Part shown: positions 1,950-37,968 of the stretch, one piece after another
How positions within the stretch are numbered: the stretch's first letter is position 1
Layout of the letters: every line of letters begins with the position of its first letter
DNA from: Lachnospiraceae bacterium
GTDB lineage: Bacteria; Bacillota; Clostridia; Lachnospirales; Lachnospiraceae
DNA: 38,449 nt
Direction: 5' to 3'
Assembly: GCA_017476665.1 (NCBI GenBank)
Contig: JAFUZJ010000063.1
Location: forward strand, 1-38,449
Notes under the pieces: model-generated
Told to the model about the DNA's origin: nothing
Database searches by the model: none
The model's input: the letters and a program-made list of their open reading frames with translations, nothing else
Made by a program: the position numbers and the translations under genes

Positions 1950-2498
1950 TCACGCTCTGCGCAGAAAAACATGCTGATTTGTCTTATATCGTTTCACCTT
2001 GGTGCATACAAAACCTAATTCTTCCGCATAGTCAAAATCCGTCTGCAGATCCGCTTCCACCACGATCAACGTGTCCTCTGTTACACAGGAAAGATGACGC
2101 AAAAGCTCCAATACACGTTTCTCATGCTCCTGCCCGTAGGGCGGGTCCATAAAGACAATATCCAGCTCTTTTTCGTGAATACCGGATAGGGCAGCAAGCA
2201 CATCCTGTTTTATTACTATACCACGGTCTTCGAATTTCGTAAATGCCAGATTTTGCCCGATACAGGAAATCGCCTTGGGCGCCTGCTCCACAAAATAGGC
2301 TTTCCTGGCGCCACGGCTCAGCGCCTCAATGCCGATGCCGCCGCTTCCGCTGAACAGATCCACAAACACACTCTCCGGCACATAGGGTTGGAGCATATTA
2401 AACAGCGTCTCCTTGATGCGGTCTGTGGTGGGTCTGGTATCCAGTCCCTCCGGCGCCTTTAACGGAAGGCTCCTGGCCGTACCTGCGATCACTCTCAT
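1950..2498 (-). CDS. rsmD: 16S rRNA (guanine(966)-N(2))-methyltransferase
   Basis: Methylates N2 of G966 of 16S rRNA using S-adenosylmethionine. It opens with the family signature MRVIAG, then LDTRPTTDRIKETLFNML. The SAM site is VDLFSGSGGIGIEAL (46-60), and the base-flipping amino-methylase motif is DPPY (118-121). Its 182 residues match the family. The ATG overlaps the stop of the topoisomerase A gene in an ATGA arrangement, so translation is probably coupled. coaD follows downstream. Confidence 0.95.
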   Translation of the reverse strand: MRVIAGTARSLPLKAPEGLDTRPTTDRIKETLFNMLQPYVPESVFVDLFSGSGGIGIEALSRGARKAYFVEQAPKAISCIGQNLAFTKFEDRGIVIKQDVLAALSGIHEKELDIVFMDPPYGQEHEKRVLELLRHLSCVTEDTLIVVEADLQTDFDYAEELGFVCTKVKRYKTNQHVFLRRA

Positions 2499-4738
2499 GC
2501 GCGAATTTTCACTCCTTTTTGGTCTCGCTTGGCAAGCTTGATGCTGTTTAACAGCAGATGCTTTGACTTGTATTCAATGGCAGCTTCCGAGGTGGCTTCG
2601 GTGTAATAAACCGCTTCCAGGCTGTCTTTTTCGCCCAGCTTCATGCCTCTGACGCCTACAGCGCCTTTCTTCTTCTCCGGGATCTCCTCCACGGAAAACC
2701 GCAGGAAATATCCTTCTTTGGACTGCAGGATCACATTGCGCTGGTCATACAGGGTGACAACACTTAATAGAGTATCTCCCTCGCTCAGCTTGGTAGCTGC
2801 CACGGTGCGTTTGCTCACATCGAACTCGCCGCCGTCCACAACTTTCATCATAGCCTGTGAAGTGACAAAAAGCAACTGTTTTAAATTCAATTCAGACTGA
2901 CTTGTGGCGTACACAATCTGCTCTTTTTCCGTGCTGTAATTGCTCACATTGTCCACCGGGACACCCTTGTCACGGAATTTTCCGAAGGGAAGATCCAATA
3001 CCTTGATCGTATGGAGCTGTCCCTGGTCGGTAAACAGGCAGATCCTGCCGGTGTTTTTGCAGGGGAAGATAAACTTGTTTTCCGCATCTGCAGCTTCTTT
3101 GTTGCGTTCGTAGGTTGCCATGTCTATGGTCTTGGCGTAGCCGAACCGGTCCATCAGGAACATGACATCCATCTCCTCCAGCTCTTTCTCTTTATAGACA
3201 GCCTCCTCACCGTTCTCAATCACAGTTTTGCGGGGGCAGCCGTACGCTTTCTTAAATTCGTCCAGTTCATTCATGATGACCTGGGCCATGGAATCCCTGC
3301 GCTCCAGGATATCTTCATAGCGGTAGATATTCGCCATGGTTTCCTCGTGCTCATTGATCAGAGCTTCAATCTCCAGACCGATCAACTTATACAGCCGCAT
3401 CTCCAGAATTGCGTTCGCCTGGTTCTCCGTAAAGGCAAGCTGCTCTGCCATGATCTTGGATTCTTTGGATTTGAATTTGATGCCCTCCGTCTTACCTTCC
3501 ACCAGACAGGCTTTGGCCATATTGCGGTCCTTGGAACCGCGCAGGATCTCAATGATCAGGTCAATAACATTGCAGGCTTTGATCAGGCCTTCCTGAATCT
3601 CCTTGCGCTCCATCTCTTTTGCCAGCAGGTTTGTATATTTTCTGGTGGCAACCTCATACTGGAAGTCCACGCAGGCCTTGATGATCTGCTTCAGGCTCAT
3701 GGTTTCCGGCCTGCCGTTTGCAATGGCCAGCATGTTGACGCCGAAAGTATCTTCCAGCCGGGTCTTTTTGTAAAGCATGTTCACAAAGTTCTCCGGATCC
3801 GCATCTTTCCTGAGCTCAATGACGATACGGATGCCCTCCTTGGAGGACTGATTGGAAATATCCACAATATCCTGAGTCTTTTTGGTCTCGGAAAGGGCCG
3901 CCACGTCGGACAGAAATTTTCCGATGTTGGCGCCAATCATGGGGTAAGGAAGCTCTGTGATGACAACATTGGTCTTGCCGCCTTTTACCTGCTCAAATTC
4001 CACTTTGCCGCGGATTTTGATCTTGCCCACGCCGGTCTCGTAGATCTCCGGCAGTTCATCCTTGTTGATGACAATACCGCCTGTGGGAAAATCAGGACCT
4101 TTTAAATATTTCATCAATTCCCGGTTGGTGATGTTTTCATCCATCATGTATGCCTTGGTGGCGTCGATGACTTCTTTCAGATTATGGGGCGGAATGCTGG
4201 TCGCCATACCTACGGCGATTCCCTCCGAACCGTTTACCAACAGATTCGGAATCTTTACAGGCAGGACGGACGGTTCTTTCTCTGTCTCATCAAAATTCGG
4301 CACAAAGTCCACTACATCTTTGTCCAGATCGGCAAGAAAAGCTTCCTGGGTGATCTTCTGTAACCTTGCCTCCGTATAACGCATGGCTGCTGCGCCGTCC
4401 CCCTCAATATTGCCGAAATTGCCGTGACCGTCGATCAGCGGCATTCCCTTTTTGAAGTCCTGGGTCATGACCACCAGCGCCTCATAGATGGAGCTGTCGC
4501 CGTGAGGATGATATTTACCCATGGTATCGCCAACGATACGGGCACTTTTTCTGTAAGGTCTGTCGTAACGGATACCCAGCTCATGCATATCATAAAGCAC
4601 CCTGCGCTGCACCGGCTTCAGACCGTCCCGCACATCCGGCAGCGCACGCGCCACAATAACGCTCATGGCATAGTCGATAAAAGACTTCTGCATCTCCTCC
4701 GAATATTCTGTTCTGATGATCCTGTCGTTTGTGTTCAT
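2495..4738 (-). CDS. parC: Type IIA DNA topoisomerase subunit A (ParC/GyrA-like)
   Basis: Breakage-reunion subunit that works with the B subunit encoded at 5745-7670. The 747-residue protein begins with the winged-helix domain; the active-site tyrosine is Tyr121 in AMRYTEARL. The quinolone region reads HPHG-D-S82-S-I-Y-E86, so it carries the Ser and acidic residues usually linked to quinolone susceptibility. The C-terminal beta-propeller is present (blades around FTDQGQLHTIK and LFVTSQAMMKVV), but I see no QRRGGKG-type GyrA box; the nearest sequence is KGAVGVRGMK near residue 700. By known biochemistry this favours a decatenating, topoisomerase IV-like enzyme over a supercoiling gyrase, although the symbol is an inference. 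The start overlaps the AlkD stop (ATGA); GAGGA lies upstream. rsmD overlaps its end. Confidence 0.9.
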   Translation of the reverse strand: MNTNDRIIRTEYSEEMQKSFIDYAMSVIVARALPDVRDGLKPVQRRVLYDMHELGIRYDRPYRKSARIVGDTMGKYHPHGDSSIYEALVVMTQDFKKGMPLIDGHGNFGNIEGDGAAAMRYTEARLQKITQEAFLADLDKDVVDFVPNFDETEKEPSVLPVKIPNLLVNGSEGIAVGMATSIPPHNLKEVIDATKAYMMDENITNRELMKYLKGPDFPTGGIVINKDELPEIYETGVGKIKIRGKVEFEQVKGGKTNVVITELPYPMIGANIGKFLSDVAALSETKKTQDIVDISNQSSKEGIRIVIELRKDADPENFVNMLYKKTRLEDTFGVNMLAIANGRPETMSLKQIIKACVDFQYEVATRKYTNLLAKEMERKEIQEGLIKACNVIDLIIEILRGSKDRNMAKACLVEGKTEGIKFKSKESKIMAEQLAFTENQANAILEMRLYKLIGLEIEALINEHEETMANIYRYEDILERRDSMAQVIMNELDEFKKAYGCPRKTVIENGEEAVYKEKELEEMDVMFLMDRFGYAKTIDMATYERNKEAADAENKFIFPCKNTGRICLFTDQGQLHTIKVLDLPFGKFRDKGVPVDNVSNYSTEKEQIVYATSQSELNLKQLLFVTSQAMMKVVDGGEFDVSKRTVAATKLSEGDTLLSVVTLYDQRNVILQSKEGYFLRFSVEEIPEKKKGAVGVRGMKLGEKDSLEAVYYTEATSEAAIEYKSKHLLLNSIKLAKRDQKGVKIRA

Positions 4739-5439
4739 AGTACTTTAAGTCCTCTCAAATATTCTTTCTGCTCCGATGTGATCCGGTAGCTTTCTATTGC
4801 CTTTTGGATGGTCTTATTGTGCGTCCACACATCCAGTCTGTTCTCCTCAAGATAAGGCAAGATTGCGTCATACTGTTTGGCGAGCGCTGTCGCGAAATAC
4901 CACGCCCGCATCATGTTGATATAATACTCCGGCGAAGAAACCGCCGCGACCATATCCGCATATTCCGTTTTGAAATCCTCGTCCAGAAAATGTCGCATCA
5001 GCATGCCGACGGCAAAACGCACTTCATAGACAGGCTCCGCAACAATCCATCTGCGGATGGCAAACAGCAGCTTTTTCTTTTCTTTTCCCAGGACTTTGGG
5101 CGCCATCATGTCGCAGGTTGCCCAATTGTCCACATAGGGGAGAAATCGGTCCAGCGCCGCAATACAGGTATCAAAGTCTTCTATCTGTTCGATAAACAGG
5201 CCGTGCAGATTGTTTTCTTCGTAATAGTGATGCGGGAGTTCGGACATAAAAGCATCTATGGAGAATTGCCCCTTTATTTGGGCTTCCCGCCATAATTCCT
5301 TTGCGAGCTTCCTGAGTTTTGGCGTACGAATACCAATGATCCGGTCCGCATCAATCGTGGGCATCAATTTAGAATGAAAAGCCTTATATTCTTTGTCTTG
5401 TAATGCAAATAACTGTTCTCTGTAACTATCAATACTCAT
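4735..5439 (-). CDS. DNA alkylation repair protein, AlkD-like HEAT-repeat glycosylase
   Basis: Family PF08713: all-helical HEAT-like glycosylases that remove positively charged alkylated bases such as 3-methyladenine or 7-methylguanine derivatives without base flipping. Recognisable features are IIGIRTPKLRKLAKELW, HGLFIEQIEDFD, the DNWATCD motif (family VDNWATVD/NNWDLVD type, with the catalytic Asp) and the ending NKTIQKAIESYRITSEQKEYLRGL (split here only for description). The start at 5439 (MSIDSYREQLF) fits the family N-terminus; an upstream ATG at 5472 adds 11 residues, and neither has a strong Shine-Dalgarno. It sits between the two topoisomerase subunit genes, its stop overlapping the A-subunit start, and directly downstream of one of the paired GACTAA elements. 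Confidence 0.85.
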   Translation of the reverse strand: MSIDSYREQLFALQDKEYKAFHSKLMPTIDADRIIGIRTPKLRKLAKELWREAQIKGQFSIDAFMSELPHHYYEENNLHGLFIEQIEDFDTCIAALDRFLPYVDNWATCDMMAPKVLGKEKKKLLFAIRRWIVAEPVYEVRFAVGMLMRHFLDEDFKTEYADMVAAVSSPEYYINMMRAWYFATALAKQYDAILPYLEENRLDVWTHNKTIQKAIESYRITSEQKEYLRGLKVL

Positions 5440-5506
5440 TTCTTCGCCATTTTTTGTTGTTCTGTGTTTCATCTCACGTGTGATTATTATTACGTTTTAT
5501 ATAATC

Positions 5507-5697
5507 TCGACTAAATCATTAAAATCACCCCAGCCTTAGTCGAAACATATCTGTATTTCAAATAAACCCATTCGTAAAAACGTTTCATTTTCTGATTTTA
5601 CACCAAAAACAAATTGTTTTACATAATGCAATAAGGAAATAATCGCAATATTGATATTTCTCGACTAAAAAAGGGATATTTGTATTATTTTAGTCAA
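5507..5697. repeat. Paired GACTAA/TTAGTC element, copy A
   Basis: This AT-rich gap between the topoisomerase B and alkD genes holds two inverted pairs. Pair A1: GACTAA at 5509-5514 and TTAGTC at 5536-5541; its arms extend to TCGACTAA/TTAGTCGA. Pair A2: GACTAA at 5663-5668 and TTAGTC at 5690-5695; its arms extend to GACTAAAA/TTTTAGTC. Both pairs have exactly 21 bases between the hexamers, and the pairs start 154 bases apart. Copy B at 36563-36753 has the same geometry. Other conserved traits are ATAATCGCAAT before the second pair (copy B has ATAATTGCAAT) and AAATCGG after it (copy B AAATCTG). No convincing gene lies in this gap. Function unknown: protein-binding control site, MITE-like repeat or structured RNA are all possible. 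Confidence 0.7.
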
Positions 5698-5744
5698 ATC
5701 GGTTTTCTGATGGTATTCATGTAAAATCCCACCTGTTACCCGTA

Positions 5745-7670
5745 TCAAATATCCAGCGCCGCATCCTGCGCATGCTCATAGATAAACGCCTTACGGGGCG
5801 GAACCTCCGTGCCCATCAAAAGCTCAGTCATCTCGCTGGCCATGCGGGCATCCTCAATCTCCACCTGCTTCAACAGTCTGCGCTCCGGGTCCAGCGTGGT
5901 CTCCCAGAGCTGGGTGGCATCCATTTCTCCCAGACCTTTGTAGCGCTGCAGGGTAAAGGAACCTTTGTGCGTCTTTCTGTATTTTTCCAACGCCTTGTCG
6001 TCGTAGAGATACTCCTCTGCGCCCTTATTCGGCATGGCCTTATACAGGGGCGGCATGGCAATATATACATGCCCCTCAAAGATCAGTTCCGGCATGAACC
6101 GATAAAACAATGTCATCAACAGATTGGAAATATGCGCGCCGTCCACATCCGCATCCGCCATGATAATGATCTTGTCATAGCGCAGCTTGGAAATATCGAA
6201 ATCATTTCCGTATCCTTCGGAAAAACCGCAGCCAAACGCATTGATCATGGTCTTGATCTCGGCGTTGGCAAGCACCTTGTCGATGCTGGCTTTCTCCACA
6301 TTCAAGATCTTGCCGCGGATGGGCAGAATGGCCTGATAATTGCGGTCTCGTGCCATCTTGGCGCTGCCACCTGCGGAATCTCCCTCCACGATGAATATCT
6401 CGCATTTGGAGGCGTCCTTGGAGATACAGTTTGCCAGCTTCCCGTTGGAATCAAAGGAAAACTTCTGCTTGGTCAGCATATTGGTCTTGGCTTTTTCCTC
6501 GGTCTTACGGATCTTGGCCGCCTTCTCCGCGCAGGAAATGATCGTTTTCAAGGTCTCCAGATTACGGTCAAAGAAACGGACAATCTCGTCGCCGGTGACC
6601 TTGCTGACCACCTTTGCCGCATCCTGGTTGTCCAGCTTTGTCTTGGTCTGCCCCTCAAAACGGGGATCGGGATGCTTGATGGACACCACCGCCGTCATAC
6701 CGTTTCGCACATCGGCGCCGGTGAAATTGATATCCTTTTCCTTTAAAATTCCCAGTTCTCTGGCATAGGTATTGATCACGTTGGTGAACATGGTCTTAAA
6801 ACCGGTCAGATGGGTACCGCCCTCGGAATTATAGATATTATTACAAAATCCCAGCACATTCTCGTGAAATTCATTGATATACTGGAACGCTACCTCCACG
6901 GAGATGCCTTCGCTCTCACCGGAGAAATACACCACATCATGTACCGCCTCGGCACTCTTATTCATGTCTTTTATAAAACCAACGATACCTTCCGGCTCGT
7001 GGAAGGTAACCTGCTCTATCTCTTCCTTGCGCTTGTCCGTAAACTGAATGGTCAGATTCGGATTCAGATATGCGGTTTCATGAAGTCTGCTCTTTACCTC
7101 ATCCTCTTTAAAACGCGTTTTATCAAAAATGGTGTCGTCCGGCAGGAAATTGATGGTCGTACCCGTCTCCCTGGTCTTTCCCACCACAGGCAAAAGACCG
7201 TTTTCCAATTCGATGACCGGCACGCCTCTCTCATACTGATCCTCATAGATGTAGCCATCCGACTTGACTCTTACGGTCAAACGCGTGGACAATGCATTTA
7301 CCACCGAGGAACCCACACCATGCAGACCGCCGCTGGTCTTGTAAGCGGTATTGTCAAATTTACCGCCCGCATGCAGTGTTGTGAACACCAGCCGCTCCGC
7401 ACTCATGCCCTTCTCATGCATGCCCACCGGAATCCCTCGTCCATTATCGGAAACCGTCGCAGAGCCGTCTGCCTCCAACGTCACGGAAATCATATCGCAA
7501 AAACCCGCTAAATGCTCATCCACAGAGTTATCTACGATCTCGTAGATCAAGTGATTCAAACCCTTCGTCGAAACACTGCCGATGTACATACCCGGGCGTT
7601 TGCGGACCGCCTCCAGTCCCTCTAACACGGTAATGCTGGATGCGTCATAGTTATTCGTAACTTTAGCCAT
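5745..7670 (-). CDS. parE: Type IIA DNA topoisomerase subunit B (ParE/GyrB-like)
   Basis: ATPase and TOPRIM subunit, partner of the A subunit at 2495-4738. The start at 7670 (MAKVTNNYDASSI) has AAGGAG upstream; an in-frame start at 7724 would put translation inside the promoter repeat. GHKL ATPase motifs are EIVDNSVDE (44-52, Glu44 and Asn48), DNGRGIP (75-81) and GGLHGVGSSVVNAL. The transducer holds QTKTKLDN. TOPRIM motifs are EGDSAGG and DADVDGAHI, and the end has RYKGLGEMD. The 641 residues suit GyrB or ParE without the proteobacterial insert. Pairing with a subunit A lacking a GyrA box suggests topoisomerase IV. Its promoter carries a perfect inverted repeat (7696-7731). Confidence 0.9.
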   Translation of the reverse strand: MAKVTNNYDASSITVLEGLEAVRKRPGMYIGSVSTKGLNHLIYEIVDNSVDEHLAGFCDMISVTLEADGSATVSDNGRGIPVGMHEKGMSAERLVFTTLHAGGKFDNTAYKTSGGLHGVGSSVVNALSTRLTVRVKSDGYIYEDQYERGVPVIELENGLLPVVGKTRETGTTINFLPDDTIFDKTRFKEDEVKSRLHETAYLNPNLTIQFTDKRKEEIEQVTFHEPEGIVGFIKDMNKSAEAVHDVVYFSGESEGISVEVAFQYINEFHENVLGFCNNIYNSEGGTHLTGFKTMFTNVINTYARELGILKEKDINFTGADVRNGMTAVVSIKHPDPRFEGQTKTKLDNQDAAKVVSKVTGDEIVRFFDRNLETLKTIISCAEKAAKIRKTEEKAKTNMLTKQKFSFDSNGKLANCISKDASKCEIFIVEGDSAGGSAKMARDRNYQAILPIRGKILNVEKASIDKVLANAEIKTMINAFGCGFSEGYGNDFDISKLRYDKIIIMADADVDGAHISNLLMTLFYRFMPELIFEGHVYIAMPPLYKAMPNKGAEEYLYDDKALEKYRKTHKGSFTLQRYKGLGEMDATQLWETTLDPERRLLKQVEIEDARMASEMTELLMGTEVPPRKAFIYEHAQDAALDI

Positions 7671-7695
7671 TTGTGTATTACTCCTTAAATCTATC

Positions 7696-7731
7696 AATAC
7701 ATATGTTCTCCAAAATCCGAACATATGTATT
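7696..7731. promoter_or_regulatory. Perfect 13-base inverted repeat at the topoisomerase B start site
   Basis: AATACATATGTTC (7696-7708), ten bases, then GAACATATGTATT (7719-7731). Each arm contains GAACATATGT, half-matching a Firmicute LexA/DinR box. It lies immediately downstream of a probable extended -10 on the minus strand, so it could be an operator over the start site or a hairpin at the 5' end of the mRNA. The ribosome binding site AAGGAG follows it. Confidence 0.65.
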
Positions 7732-33289: not shown

Positions 33290-33979
33290 CTATTCTGCTT
33301 TCCAAAGCAAAATTGAAGTATCTTTAAGAGCTTCTATTTCCTCATCAACATTATCATCCGACCATTTGATAACCTTCATTAACTGCCTTGCTCCTTGCTC
33401 CGGGATATAATAGATTTCTCTGCACACCTGTTCTGTACGATTTCCGTTATCATCCTCAACAACCATGGTCAAAGCATCACCTGTTAAGCTAATGACCGGC
33501 CAGCCTGTTTCTAGTCCATTACCTTTCAGTTCGGTATATGTCGTTGTAGTCATATACATGAAAAGAGTCTCTCCATCCGGTGTATAAATCCCGGAGCTTT
33601 TATAAAATTCTCGATTCGATCTTATAGCCTCATCCGAAACATATAAACCTGCTTCCTCATACGGAATATAATTTTCACGAACCACGATTCCATAAAATAG
33701 TCCTCCCGCAATCGCAGCAATACATACAGCCGTAACAATTGCAGTCATAAGACGTTTCTTTCTAATTTTGTTTCTGATCTTCTTCAGCGTCTCTTTATCA
33801 GCCGAATGTTTCGCACTATCATCGGCTGCAGCAGGATTCTTCATCTTTTGAAAATAATCGGTGCACTCAGCACAGACAGCGATGTGTTCATCAACTACTT
33901 TTCGGCTATCGTCAGACAGCACATCATCCACATAAAGCGGAAGAAGATCTTTTACTACGTTACATGTTATATCAGCCAT
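33290..33979 (-). CDS. Membrane-anchored anti-sigma factor with zf-HC2 zinc finger
   Basis: 229 residues. The N-terminal zinc-binding anti-sigma domain shows Cys6, then EHIAVCAECTDYF with His32, Cys36 and Cys39. A Lys/Arg-rich stretch (RNKIRKKRL) precedes one transmembrane helix (about 76-99, TAIVTAVCIAAIAGGLFYG), and the rest is an extracellular sensor domain (YIPYEEAGLYVSDEAIRSNR). It starts eight bases before the end of the sigma gene, so the two are translated together. The domain order supports sequestration of the sigma factor at the membrane until an external signal arrives; the signal is unknown. Confidence 0.88.
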   Translation of the reverse strand: MADITCNVVKDLLPLYVDDVLSDDSRKVVDEHIAVCAECTDYFQKMKNPAAADDSAKHSADKETLKKIRNKIRKKRLMTAIVTAVCIAAIAGGLFYGIVVRENYIPYEEAGLYVSDEAIRSNREFYKSSGIYTPDGETLFMYMTTTTYTELKGNGLETGWPVISLTGDALTMVVEDDNGNRTEQVCREIYYIPEQGARQLMKVIKWSDDNVDEEIEALKDTSILLWKAE

Positions 33980-34448
33980 TATCCAATTCCTCCCTGATCA
34001 TGATTCGGGCCCGGTGATATGTCACCCTTGCCCAACTTGTTGTTTTTTCAAATAGTTCAGCAATCTCCGAAAAAGACAATTCTCCATAGGTACGGAGTGT
34101 AAAAACTTCTTTGTATGGTTCTTTGAGAGAATGCAGGATCTTGTTGATCGCCTTTCTGTCAGTCTCCCTGACCATGTCGTCCTCCGGTGATAATGCTGAT
34201 TCACCATACTCCTCCGGCAGTTCCTCAAAACGGGATTGCTTCTTAAGATGATCGTAATATAGGTTTTTGGCAATCTGGCAAAGCCAAACCCTGATACTAC
34301 AATCTCCCCTGAAAGATTCTATCTTTTTCATTGCCCTAAAGAAGGTTTCCTGTGTAATCTCTTCGGCCGTCAGAGGATCACGGGACATGGATAAGATATA
34401 TTTGTATACCACAGAAAAGTATTCCTGATACAGTTTTTCTATATCCAC
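33972..34448 (-). CDS. ECF-type RNA polymerase sigma factor
   Basis: 158 residues, starting at GTG 34448 with AAGGAGGTGAAAAT upstream; an overlapping ATG in another frame stops after two codons. Region 2 is seen in DPLTAEEITQETFFRAMKKI and region 4 in LKEPYKEVFTLRTYGELSFS followed by EIAELFEKTTSWARVTYHRA. No region 3, as usual for ECF factors. It overlaps the anti-sigma gene. A possible self-recognised promoter is upstream. Confidence 0.93.
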   Translation of the reverse strand: MDIEKLYQEYFSVVYKYILSMSRDPLTAEEITQETFFRAMKKIESFRGDCSIRVWLCQIAKNLYYDHLKKQSRFEELPEEYGESALSPEDDMVRETDRKAINKILHSLKEPYKEVFTLRTYGELSFSEIAELFEKTTSWARVTYHRARIMIREELDNG

Positions 34449-34587: not shown

Positions 34588-36447
34588 TCAGCTCTGCAGC
34601 ACCTTCATCTGATAGAATCTGCCCTTCTTCTCCATCAGTTCCTCAAAGGTTCCGTACTCCACGCACCTGCCTGCGTCGATCACGGCAATCTTATCTGCAT
34701 TTCGGATTGTGGAAAGTCTGTGTGCCACAATAAAGGTAGTACGGTTTTCGGTCAGTCTGTCCACCGCCTCCTGGATCAGCTTCTCGGAAATGCTGTCCAG
34801 CGCCGAGGTAGCCTCATCCAATATGATGACACTGGGCTCCCGCACCAAAGCCCTCGCGATCGAGATACGCTGCCTCTGCCCGCCAGAGAGTTTGCCGCCA
34901 TGTTCGCCTACCTTAGTTTCCAACCCTTCCGGCAGGGAATCGATCAGGTCCTTTAGGTTTGCCGCCTGAATGACCTCCTGCAGTTTCTCCTCAGTCACAC
35001 CCTCACACCCATACAGAATATTTTCCCGGATCGTACCGGAAAACAGAATAGAGGTCTGCGGAACTACGGCCAGATGCTTACGATAGCTGCGCAAATCAAT
35101 TTCATTCAGGTTCTCCCCGTCGATCAAAACCTCTCCGTCACGGGTCAGATAAAAACCGATCACCATATTCAAAATTGTGGTCTTACCTGCGCCGGACTCT
35201 CCCACCAATGCGATAGTCTCACCTTTGGTCACTTCCAGGTTCAAACCGTTCAGTGTGGCTCTACCGCCGCCTTTATACTGAAAATTCACATTGTGAAATG
35301 AGAAATTTCCCTGCACATCCGCAATCTCTTTCTTGCCTTCATTATCCTCGATATCTTCGGACAGCAGAATCTCCCCGATGGAGCTTACAGATTCAATGCC
35401 TTTTGCGATCACCGGCACCAGAGTAATAATTGCGGAAAACTGGTTTACGATGGTGGCAAAATAGTTCTGATATAACGCGATATCGCCCACCAAAATATTC
35501 CCTTCCAGCGCCAGATAACCGGTAAAGCCCAGGCAGATCACCTGGAAGATCTGGAACACCGCCCAGCCCACCGAACCAAATAACGCCTGCACCAGATCCA
35601 GCTTATACCCCTTCTCTGCCACGCTAAAGAGCTGGTCGCTCATCTTGGAAACCTCTTCCTCTTCCAAAGCATGAGCTCTGGTCACCGGGATCAACTCCAC
35701 CATCTCCATCACTCTGGCTGAAGTCTCCTCCATCTCTTTTCGGAACTCTCTGTTGCGCTTCTTCATCACGCCCCGAAAAGATACCATCGTCACGGCTGCC
35801 AGCGGCGTAGTGATCAGGAAGAACAAAAATACCACCCAGCTCTTGGAGATGGTCACCACCAGCGCCACGATAATATTCATGGCGATATTCAGGATATTGA
35901 TGAACATCTGCGTGGAAAGACTCTCCACCGCCTCCACATCGCGCATGATCTTGGACTGCAGTTTACCGGATTGGGTCTCCACGTGATACGCAATGGAAAG
36001 CTGCTGGAGTTTGCGGATCAACGCCTTTCTAAGCCCTGTCTCCGCATACCTTGTCGCCTGACTCTTATAATCCGTGTAAAGATAATTCATCGGTACATTC
36101 AGCGCGATCAGTCCGATCATCATCACGACATACATCACAATATTCCGCATTACATCCGGATTACCCGTAGTGACATCATTGATGATGTTTGCCATCACGA
36201 TCGGCAGAATCCAGACGCAGGCATGCTTGATAAAGAAAAAGAAAATCGCAAGGAAAAATTTACGATAATTCCCTTTATACAAAGCGATCAGGGTCAGGAT
36301 TGGATGCCCTTCGTGCTTGCGGTACATTTCCGTAAACCAGACCGCCGGCTCAATGCCCTTGGGCGGACTCATTTTCTTTTCGAAAGAAGTTTTTGTGATT
36401 TTATCTGTCTTTTTTGCTTTGGCTGTATTAGCTTTCTTTATGCTCAT
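34588..36447 (-). CDS. ABC transporter, fused permease and ATPase (exporter type)
   Basis: About 619 residues from ATG 36447 (MSIKKANTAKAKK), chosen because AGAGGA lies upstream; in-frame starts at 36459 (ATG) and 36474 (GTG) cannot be excluded. A Lys-rich head precedes a six-helix exporter domain (FFLAIFFFFIKHACVWILPIV onward) and the ATPase: Walker A GESGAGKTT, Q-loop VVPQTSILFSG, signature LSGGQRQRISIARAL and Walker B VIILDEATSALDS, then the switch His in IVAHRLSTI. It works as a dimer, homomeric unless a partner is elsewhere. Between it and ilvC is the second paired GACTAA element. Confidence 0.92.
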   Translation of the reverse strand: MSIKKANTAKAKKTDKITKTSFEKKMSPPKGIEPAVWFTEMYRKHEGHPILTLIALYKGNYRKFFLAIFFFFIKHACVWILPIVMANIINDVTTGNPDVMRNIVMYVVMMIGLIALNVPMNYLYTDYKSQATRYAETGLRKALIRKLQQLSIAYHVETQSGKLQSKIMRDVEAVESLSTQMFINILNIAMNIIVALVVTISKSWVVFLFFLITTPLAAVTMVSFRGVMKKRNREFRKEMEETSARVMEMVELIPVTRAHALEEEEVSKMSDQLFSVAEKGYKLDLVQALFGSVGWAVFQIFQVICLGFTGYLALEGNILVGDIALYQNYFATIVNQFSAIITLVPVIAKGIESVSSIGEILLSEDIEDNEGKKEIADVQGNFSFHNVNFQYKGGGRATLNGLNLEVTKGETIALVGESGAGKTTILNMVIGFYLTRDGEVLIDGENLNEIDLRSYRKHLAVVPQTSILFSGTIRENILYGCEGVTEEKLQEVIQAANLKDLIDSLPEGLETKVGEHGGKLSGGQRQRISIARALVREPSVIILDEATSALDSISEKLIQEAVDRLTENRTTFIVAHRLSTIRNADKIAVIDAGRCVEYGTFEELMEKKGRFYQMKVLQS

Positions 36448-36501
36448 ATCATCTTTCATCCTCTGATGTTCCACATCTAAATAACTTCCATCTATCCTTG
36501 C

Positions 36502-36562: not shown

Positions 36563-36753
36563 TCGACAAAAAAATCAATATAGTCCCCAATTTAGTCCAA
36601 ACTATACGCTAATTCGTTATTAAAAAATTGCAATATTGTTTATTTTAAATATTTTTATCGTGATAATCGACATATTAACGCAATCATGTAAAAATATAAT
36701 TGCAATTAAAATTTTTCAGACTAAAATCAAACAATTATATTTATATTAGTCCA
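36563..36753. repeat. Paired GACTAA/TTAGTC element, copy B
   Basis: Lies in the 417-base gap between the ABC exporter gene and ilvC. Pair B1: GACAAA (36565-36570, one mismatch) and TTAGTC (36592-36597). Pair B2: GACTAA (36719-36724) and TTAGTC (36746-36751). Each pair has 21 bases between the hexamers and the pairs start 154 bases apart, exactly as in copy A (5507-5697). TCGAC opens both copies, and ATAATTGCAAT precedes B2 as ATAATCGCAAT precedes A2. The rest of the sequence is AT-rich and diverged. Apart from this element, the small palindrome and the ilvC terminator, I see nothing in the gap. Confidence 0.7.

Positions 36754-36891: not shown

Positions 36892-37968
<1,077 letters not shown>

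Follow-up and report, generated by a model that had tools for sequence, protein, structure and literature searches.

A rare intergenic unit of four GACTAA half-sites at fixed spacing in a Lachnospiraceae genome: a possible small mobile element recognizable by its geometry

Introduction

Serine resolvases act at res sites, which contain dyads of about 28 to 34 bp at fixed spacing; the recognition bases lie toward the outside of each dyad, and its middle is AT-rich. Moved upstream regions have a named concept of their own, horizontal regulatory transfer. Small mobile elements are usually recognized by their look-alike copies. The target duplications that MITEs leave fade with time, according to an excerpt of the literature (PMC10969869), and an excerpt on the Clostridioides difficile flagellar switch describes a 154-bp segment and 21-bp repeats (PMC5386303). 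Here we describe a unit whose copies can be linked only by spacing, so that similarity searches would miss them. It was noticed in a 38,449-nucleotide stretch of a Lachnospiraceae bacterium genome (contig JAFUZJ010000063.1 of assembly GCA_017476665.1), referred to as the window.

Results

Four inverted GACTAA/TTAGTC pairs, claimed in an earlier note made from the letters of the window, are present as described, by both direct reading and pattern search (Table 1). They form two copies, A and B, of a unit with the layout GACTAA-N21-TTAGTC, N121, GACTAA-N21-TTAGTC, 187 bp in total at A and at B. Modules A1, A2, and B2 are exact dyads, and B1 carries a single mismatch in its first hexamer, the only nonexact half-site among the eight. 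The fixed spacing was likewise borne out, with 21 bases between the hexamers in all four pairs and 154 bases between pair starts at both loci. Of the islands of identity proposed between A and B, TCGAC is in register, but ATAATYGCAAT and AAATC[GT]G are shifted by one base between the two copies.

Table 1. Positions of the units, their modules, and the adjoining genes (in the window unless another contig is named)
Feature	Position	Strand	Basis or remark
Copy A, 187-bp core	5509..5695	none	Four exact half-sites; pattern search and four-hexamer scoring
Copy A half-sites	GACTAA 5509-5514, TTAGTC 5536-5541, GACTAA 5663-5668, TTAGTC 5690-5695
Module A1, dyad GACTAA-N21-TTAGTC	5509..5541		Pattern search
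Module A2, dyad GACTAA-N21-TTAGTC	5663..5695		Starts 154 from A1; pattern search
Central part of core A (core positions 54-124)	5562..5632		Holds all 8 substitutions relative to G063
Copy B, 187-bp core	36565..36751		23/24 hexamer letters
Module B1	36565..36597		First hexamer GACAAA; pattern search
Module B2	36719..36751		Exact; 154 from B1; pattern search
AlkD-like gene behind copy A	4735..5472	-	DNA_alkylation, PF08713
Type II topoisomerase subunit B gene (GyrB/ParE family) before copy A	5745..7724	-	Stop 49 bases from core
ABC exporter gene behind copy B	34588..36474	-	Start probably 36447, 117 bases from core
Ketol-acid reductoisomerase gene (ilvC) before copy B	36892..37911	-
Copy E	G000 C8:2006-2192		Hexamers GACTAA/TTATTC and GACTAA/TCTATC, exactly 154 apart
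Protein behind copy E	L122 (G000:C8) 2303-3100	+	265 aa, no Pfam match

The window contained five single-module matches with at most two mismatches, against a shuffle mean of 0.72 and a largest value of 3 in 100 shuffles; four of these are A1, A2, B1, and B2, and the fifth, with two mismatches, lies at position 3846. A genome-wide excess of the single module was not found: over the 3.64 Mb and 72 contigs of the window's genome (G000), five matches with at most one mismatch were counted, against 21 for a reversed control, and the module alone is not enriched. All five genomic matches belong to double units: four are the modules of A and B, and the fifth is the first module of copy E, described below. 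When all four hexamers were scored together, A and B reached 24 and 23 of 24 letters, respectively, against best scores of 15 to 18 per window in 20 locally shuffled windows. Copies C and E, found on other contigs, scored 24/24 and 20/24. A chance meeting of short palindromes in AT-rich gaps would agree with the genome holding the single module no more often than its reversed control, but it is scarcely credible given the scores of the double units, and the identical spacing recurs in other genomes. For A, B, and C, these results practically rule out chance; the case for E is weaker.

Of 138 genomes of the genus, three contain the double unit (at most three mismatches): G000 as A and B, G063 as D, and G055 as C, the latter two being other genomes of the same genus. 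D is the orthologue of A. Exact single modules occurred in 4 of 61 genus genomes, and the two matches in G055, 154 bases apart, constitute copy C. A search for three hexamers (at most two mismatches, 138 genomes) returned the same copies plus E in G000, leaving the number of positive genomes at 3 of 138. The runner-up place on the contig of E scored 14, compared with 20 for E itself. A covariance model (R1) gave E 13.1 bits at an E value of 2.1, and because this score is weak, its membership rests on spacing and hexamers; E is the weakest member, a degenerate copy. The geometry of two modules 154 bases apart thus recurs exactly at C and in degenerate form at E.

Under strict filters, R1 recovered no further copy above noise in the 138 genomes, among the 19 first-look candidates scored in each genome listed, so that weak copies may escape. 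Its matches in G017, G129, and G130 (E values of 0.3 to 1.0) were taken as noise. Single exact modules in G046 and G005 were set aside as lone hairpin-like sites with no further modules in their flanks, and three two-mismatch matches (G032, G083, and G086) were excluded from the counts as chance, since the reversed control gave about 60 rows in that search. A sample of 397 genomes from across the family, G000 and two further genus members among them, yielded no double unit with at most three mismatches in the 396 genomes other than G000. An exact scan of about 85,000 species, in which the middle gap was free between 106 and 136 bases, returned five loci: C and D (both with a gap of 121) and three repeat arrays. 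The arrays, in Fibrobacter (L015) and Neobacillus (L018 and L019), were set aside because they hold at least three modules at other spacings. Those in Neobacillus are 52-bp tandem repeats of GACTAA-N21-TTAGTC-like modules, and that in Fibrobacter has three such modules at 74 and 95 bases; both kinds look unrelated.

A scan of viral contigs returned no exact double unit. A phage or plasmid origin was rejected on searches with A and C against plasmids and with A and B against phages: A had one 35-base match in plasmids (E = 0.02) and none in phages, C had none in plasmids, and B had one short phage match of about 35 bases, in four records (E = 0.01). The suggestion of a nucleoid or segregation site is disfavored and was rejected as the main reading, because the unit is rare (3 of 138 genus genomes) and occupies differing loci.

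At copy C, the two states of one site could be compared. The window's own genome, G000, has the MoxR locus of C without the core, a near-isogenic empty counterpart. Toward MoxR, G055 and G000 agree at 6,287 of 6,337 positions; in the opposite flank, only two of the first 437 positions differ, both within 8 bases of the junction. Between the flanks, G055 has a 304-bp insertion that holds copy C (BLAST pieces, 99.2% over 6,337 and 98.4% over 3,809 bases). The insertion site lies between two genes that are adjacent in most relatives examined. Within the 420 bases shown for each, the core was absent from all five further MoxR loci compared, four from different species and one a second locus of G055, and the upstream homologue ends close to MoxR at four of the five, lying farther off in L087; for these reasons, G055 was read as the inserted state.

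The insertion starts inside or just after TTGAT, with a placement ambiguous by three bases, and contributes part of the stop codon of the preceding gene (TGA for TAA). The two differences near the junction are synonymous (AGT for AGC and TTC for TTT). The four readable other MoxR loci have TTT in all cases and AGC in three, indicating that the gene end in G055 is the changed one, either because it was carried by the incoming DNA or because the junction mutated. No target duplication was found at the junction of C, and no inverted ends are visible in the 304-bp insertion, the 3' end of which is ACAG as placed. TTGAT overlaps the stop of the preceding gene at A as well as at C; at B, it lies 31 bases from the core, and at E, there is none in the 55 bases before the core. 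The flanks of A and C gave p values of 0.03 to 0.04 on the right and 0.18 on the left, and right-flank comparisons of A with B (p = 0.98) and of A with E (p = 0.78) revealed no common ends. The junction at C could also stem from the transfer of a whole upstream region.

The C locus of G055 (L124, C12 4506-14934) is 98 to 99% identical to G000:C43 over about 10 kb, compared with 90% for ilvC of the same two genomes, which suggests a recent exchange between the species. The contig of C also carries genes for a serine resolvase and a PD-(D/E)XK-family transposase (L124, G055:C12, 356-967 and 1192-2118), about 9 to 10 kb from the copy.

The claim that spacing is conserved despite drift was confirmed across the enlarged set, because the interiors of A, B, C, and E are nearly unalignable and no spacing is altered. 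Without gaps, the 121-base middles are near shuffle level (A-B, 49/121, p = 0.03; A-C, p = 0.18; B-C, p = 0.60). A gapped alignment of the A and B middles beats all 400 shuffles, and A against the reverse of B also gives a p value of 0.015, a result of the palindromic character of A. A and B thus keep a weak trace of common origin, and C is not clearly alignable. When half-elements were laid out from the outside in, 65 ungapped columns aligned for A, B, and C, and also with E, and what they have in common is GACTAA, TTAGTC, and a few neighboring bases. Even within one copy, the left and right modules share the hexamers but differ in their 21-base middles. A common orientation of all copies relative to the genes is not supported by the pairwise scores, which favor one direction for A-B (91 versus 72) and A-C (86 versus 76) and the opposite direction for B-C (85 versus 79), A-E (87 versus 79), and C-E (89 versus 72). 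Copy A itself has the same orientation in G000 and G063.

Interiors so divergent, combined with spacings that are all intact, suggest that the geometry is constrained, either in the host or via selection for mobility. One could go further and propose an element defined by geometry rather than by sequence, in which four hexamers at exact distances make a ready-made four-site complex; we consider this unlikely. The corollary, that copies stay functional as nearly every other base changes and that the same architecture comes to stand before new genes, is doubtful to the same degree.

Between A and its orthologue D, all eight substitutions in the core fall into its central part, and the flanks differ by one substitution in 36 left bases and one in 49 right bases. 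Under a simple binomial model, the probability that none of the eight falls in the outer 116 bases is about 4e-4 (for a region picked post hoc), and that for the absence of substitutions from the two 33-bp modules is about 0.03. Copy A therefore looks constrained in place relative to G063, which counts against mobility, since a dead insertion would not need constraint.

Such constraint is what the main rival explanation would predict, namely, an operator for a looping or wrapping transcription regulator, with two dimers or a tetramer on the four half-sites, spread by the transfer or insertion of whole upstream regions (horizontal regulatory transfer). Besides the avoidance of the outer 116 bases and the fixed spacing with drifting interiors, it is favored by gene context. 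At each of the four loci (A, B, C, and E), both neighboring genes run the same way, so that every copy precedes a gene; the core lies 69, 117, 89, and 110 bases, respectively, ahead of the probable start. For the AlkD-like gene, this start is probably 5439, where the orthologue matches begin. We nevertheless regard an operator, and its spread with whole upstream regions, as rather unlikely. The genes behind the copies are unrelated (AlkD-like protein at A, ABC exporter at B, MoxR ATPase at C, and a protein with no Pfam match at E), and promoter-like matches are near shuffle level (4 versus 1.9 for A, 4 versus 2.7 for B, and 1 versus 1.7 for C).

Orthologous genes in other genomes of the genus also lack the unit, which argues against an operator. 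An alkD gene was found in 65 of the 138 genomes; of the 30 loci compared, the 28 outside G000 and G063 had no module with at least 10 of 12 matching letters. The topoisomerase gene lies upstream on the same strand in seven of these 28, at 67 to 140 bases in three and at 555 to 801 bases in four; its interval to alkD is 280 bases in both G000 and G063. For ilvC, found in 123 of the 138 genomes, 30 loci were compared, 29 of them from relatives, and 28 of the 29 had no module at this threshold, the exception (L057) having one lone 10-of-12 match. In several relatives, the ABC gene follows ilvC closely. The B site of G063 has a gap of roughly 380 bases, filled with unrelated sequence and free of modules. 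Conservation of the hexamers in orthologous gaps, raised in the earlier note, thus holds for A in G063 and fails at the B site of G063 and at the 28 alkD loci. As the single module does not exceed its control across the genome either, the refuting conditions set in that note yield a mixed outcome.

Several features of the surrounding DNA were recorded alongside. A terminator-like hairpin (36862-36845) lies between ilvC and core B. Window positions 2495-7724 (- strand) encode a type II topoisomerase A/B pair with the AlkD-like gene between the subunits, both of which score below the equivalog cutoffs for gyrA/gyrB and parC/parE. Downstream of the ABC exporter, positions 33290-34448 (- strand) encode an ECF-size sigma-70 region 2/4 protein and a zf-HC2 anti-sigma-like protein. 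The A locus (window 5303-5900) is 97% identical to that of G063 (L081, G063:C28), compared with 92% for ilvC and 84 to 87% for the ABC gene, and is another high-identity tract at an element-bearing locus.

Core A is an imperfect palindrome: its middle is self-complementary in register at 62 of 121 positions (versus 39; p = 0.0025), and R1 also matches A on the opposite strand with 47.6 bits. The middle of C is weakly palindromic (46/121; p = 0.21), and that of B is not (34/121 versus 41; p = 0.86). Another rival is a structured RNA leader, in which the gene strand would form one long hairpin with outer GACUAA/UUAGUC and inner UUAGUCGAGA/UYUYGACUAA helices. The gene strand of A (z = -4.5) and that of its orthologue D (z = -4.3) indeed fold in this way, and none of the 10 inner pairs is broken in any of the four sequences A to D, with one pair changed on both sides. 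However, z reaches only -1.8 for C and -0.6 for B; once the hexamers are fixed, the four values become -1.0, -1.8, -0.2, and +0.15. The level of covariation was reached by 146 of 500 shuffles, E retains three of six outer pairs, and no match at the Rfam gathering level was found in the window, where A and B, which were tested, gave only chance-level ones. An RNA leader, as a whole and in its individual helices, is thus improbable; an RNA role is possible but not supported.

Two inverted dyads in an intergenic position upstream of genes could also form an invertible promoter switch (inverton) or its remnant, in which a segment is bracketed by inverted recombination sites. Both 154 and 21 also turn up in the C. 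difficile flagellar switch as excerpted, where they mean other things, and the flagellar repeat given there differs in sequence (PMC5386303). We consider an inverton highly improbable, because, hexamers aside, the paired modules of a copy fall short of near-identical inverted repeats and because inversion leaves the insertion at C unexplained.

Discussion

Our tentative reading, to which we assign a likelihood a little short of even, is a rare, lineage-restricted, nonautonomous MITE-like element of the foldback type, about 0.3 kb long and without a gene of its own; in the gap of A, the only open reading frame of at least 30 aa has 31 aa. Constraint would act on a single feature, the AT-rich core of 187 bp, whose four GACTAA half-sites make up two dyads of 33 bp at a distance of 154 bp. 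A recombinase or transposase provided in trans would bind each dyad as a dimer, and the joining of both dyads in one complex would fix the distances of 21 and 154. Copies that keep the geometry would stay mobile while their remaining sequence drifts, and copies such as E would lose half-sites and then die.

Mobility is supported by the insertion polymorphism with an empty site, seen for one copy (C), and the MITE-like reading draws further on the palindromy of A and on the lack of the unit at orthologous alkD and ilvC loci. Against it stand ends that are not common to the copies, the lack of a target duplication at C, and a core middle that is not palindromic at B and only weakly so at C; against a MITE in particular, the copies are very few and not alike in sequence. 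The general idea of the earlier note, that such rigid geometry reflects either a MITE-like repeat or four half-sites occupied by a protein complex, gained support from the recurrence at C and E. Its MITE-like part is favored by C being an insertion with an empty counterpart, a mobile element being somewhat more probable than a looping regulator.

If the mobile-element reading is true, searching by geometry could bring to light mobile or regulatory sites of low copy number that form a class hidden so far. The empty and filled pair at C offers a direct route to testing the effect of the element on the gene behind it.

In the portions of the open-licence PMC literature that were retrieved, nothing recognizable as the four-hexamer unit was found, and the comparisons below refer to excerpts of the papers cited. 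The invertible switches of C. difficile resemble the unit in having two inverted sites upstream of a gene, but their flanking repeats are near-identical and invertible, whereas here the hexamers alone are repeated and the whole insertion is polymorphic (PMC5386303, PMC5903667). With IS200/IS605 elements and group A IStrons, the unit shares the lack of a target duplication and, broadly, subterminal palindromes, and it may share the insertion of C beside TTGAT, given a placement ambiguous by three bases; in contrast, TTGAT is missing from the 55 bases that precede core E, the dyads here have 21-base loops, and the 3' end is TCAG in those elements and ACAG at C as placed (PMC4227781). Bacterial MITEs and small palindromic elements (ERIC, RUP, BOX, and Correia) are likewise short, noncoding, AT-rich, and intergenic, with a palindromic tendency and insertion polymorphism, but their copies resemble one another in sequence and come with terminal inverted repeats and target duplications, whereas little but spacing is common to the copies described here (PMC10969869, PMC2229807). 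The copy number, one to three, and the absence of a visible duplication also set the unit apart from MITEs. In layout alone, the dyads are like those of res sites and of fixed arrays of dimer sites, with which they share the arrangement of dyads at fixed spacing.
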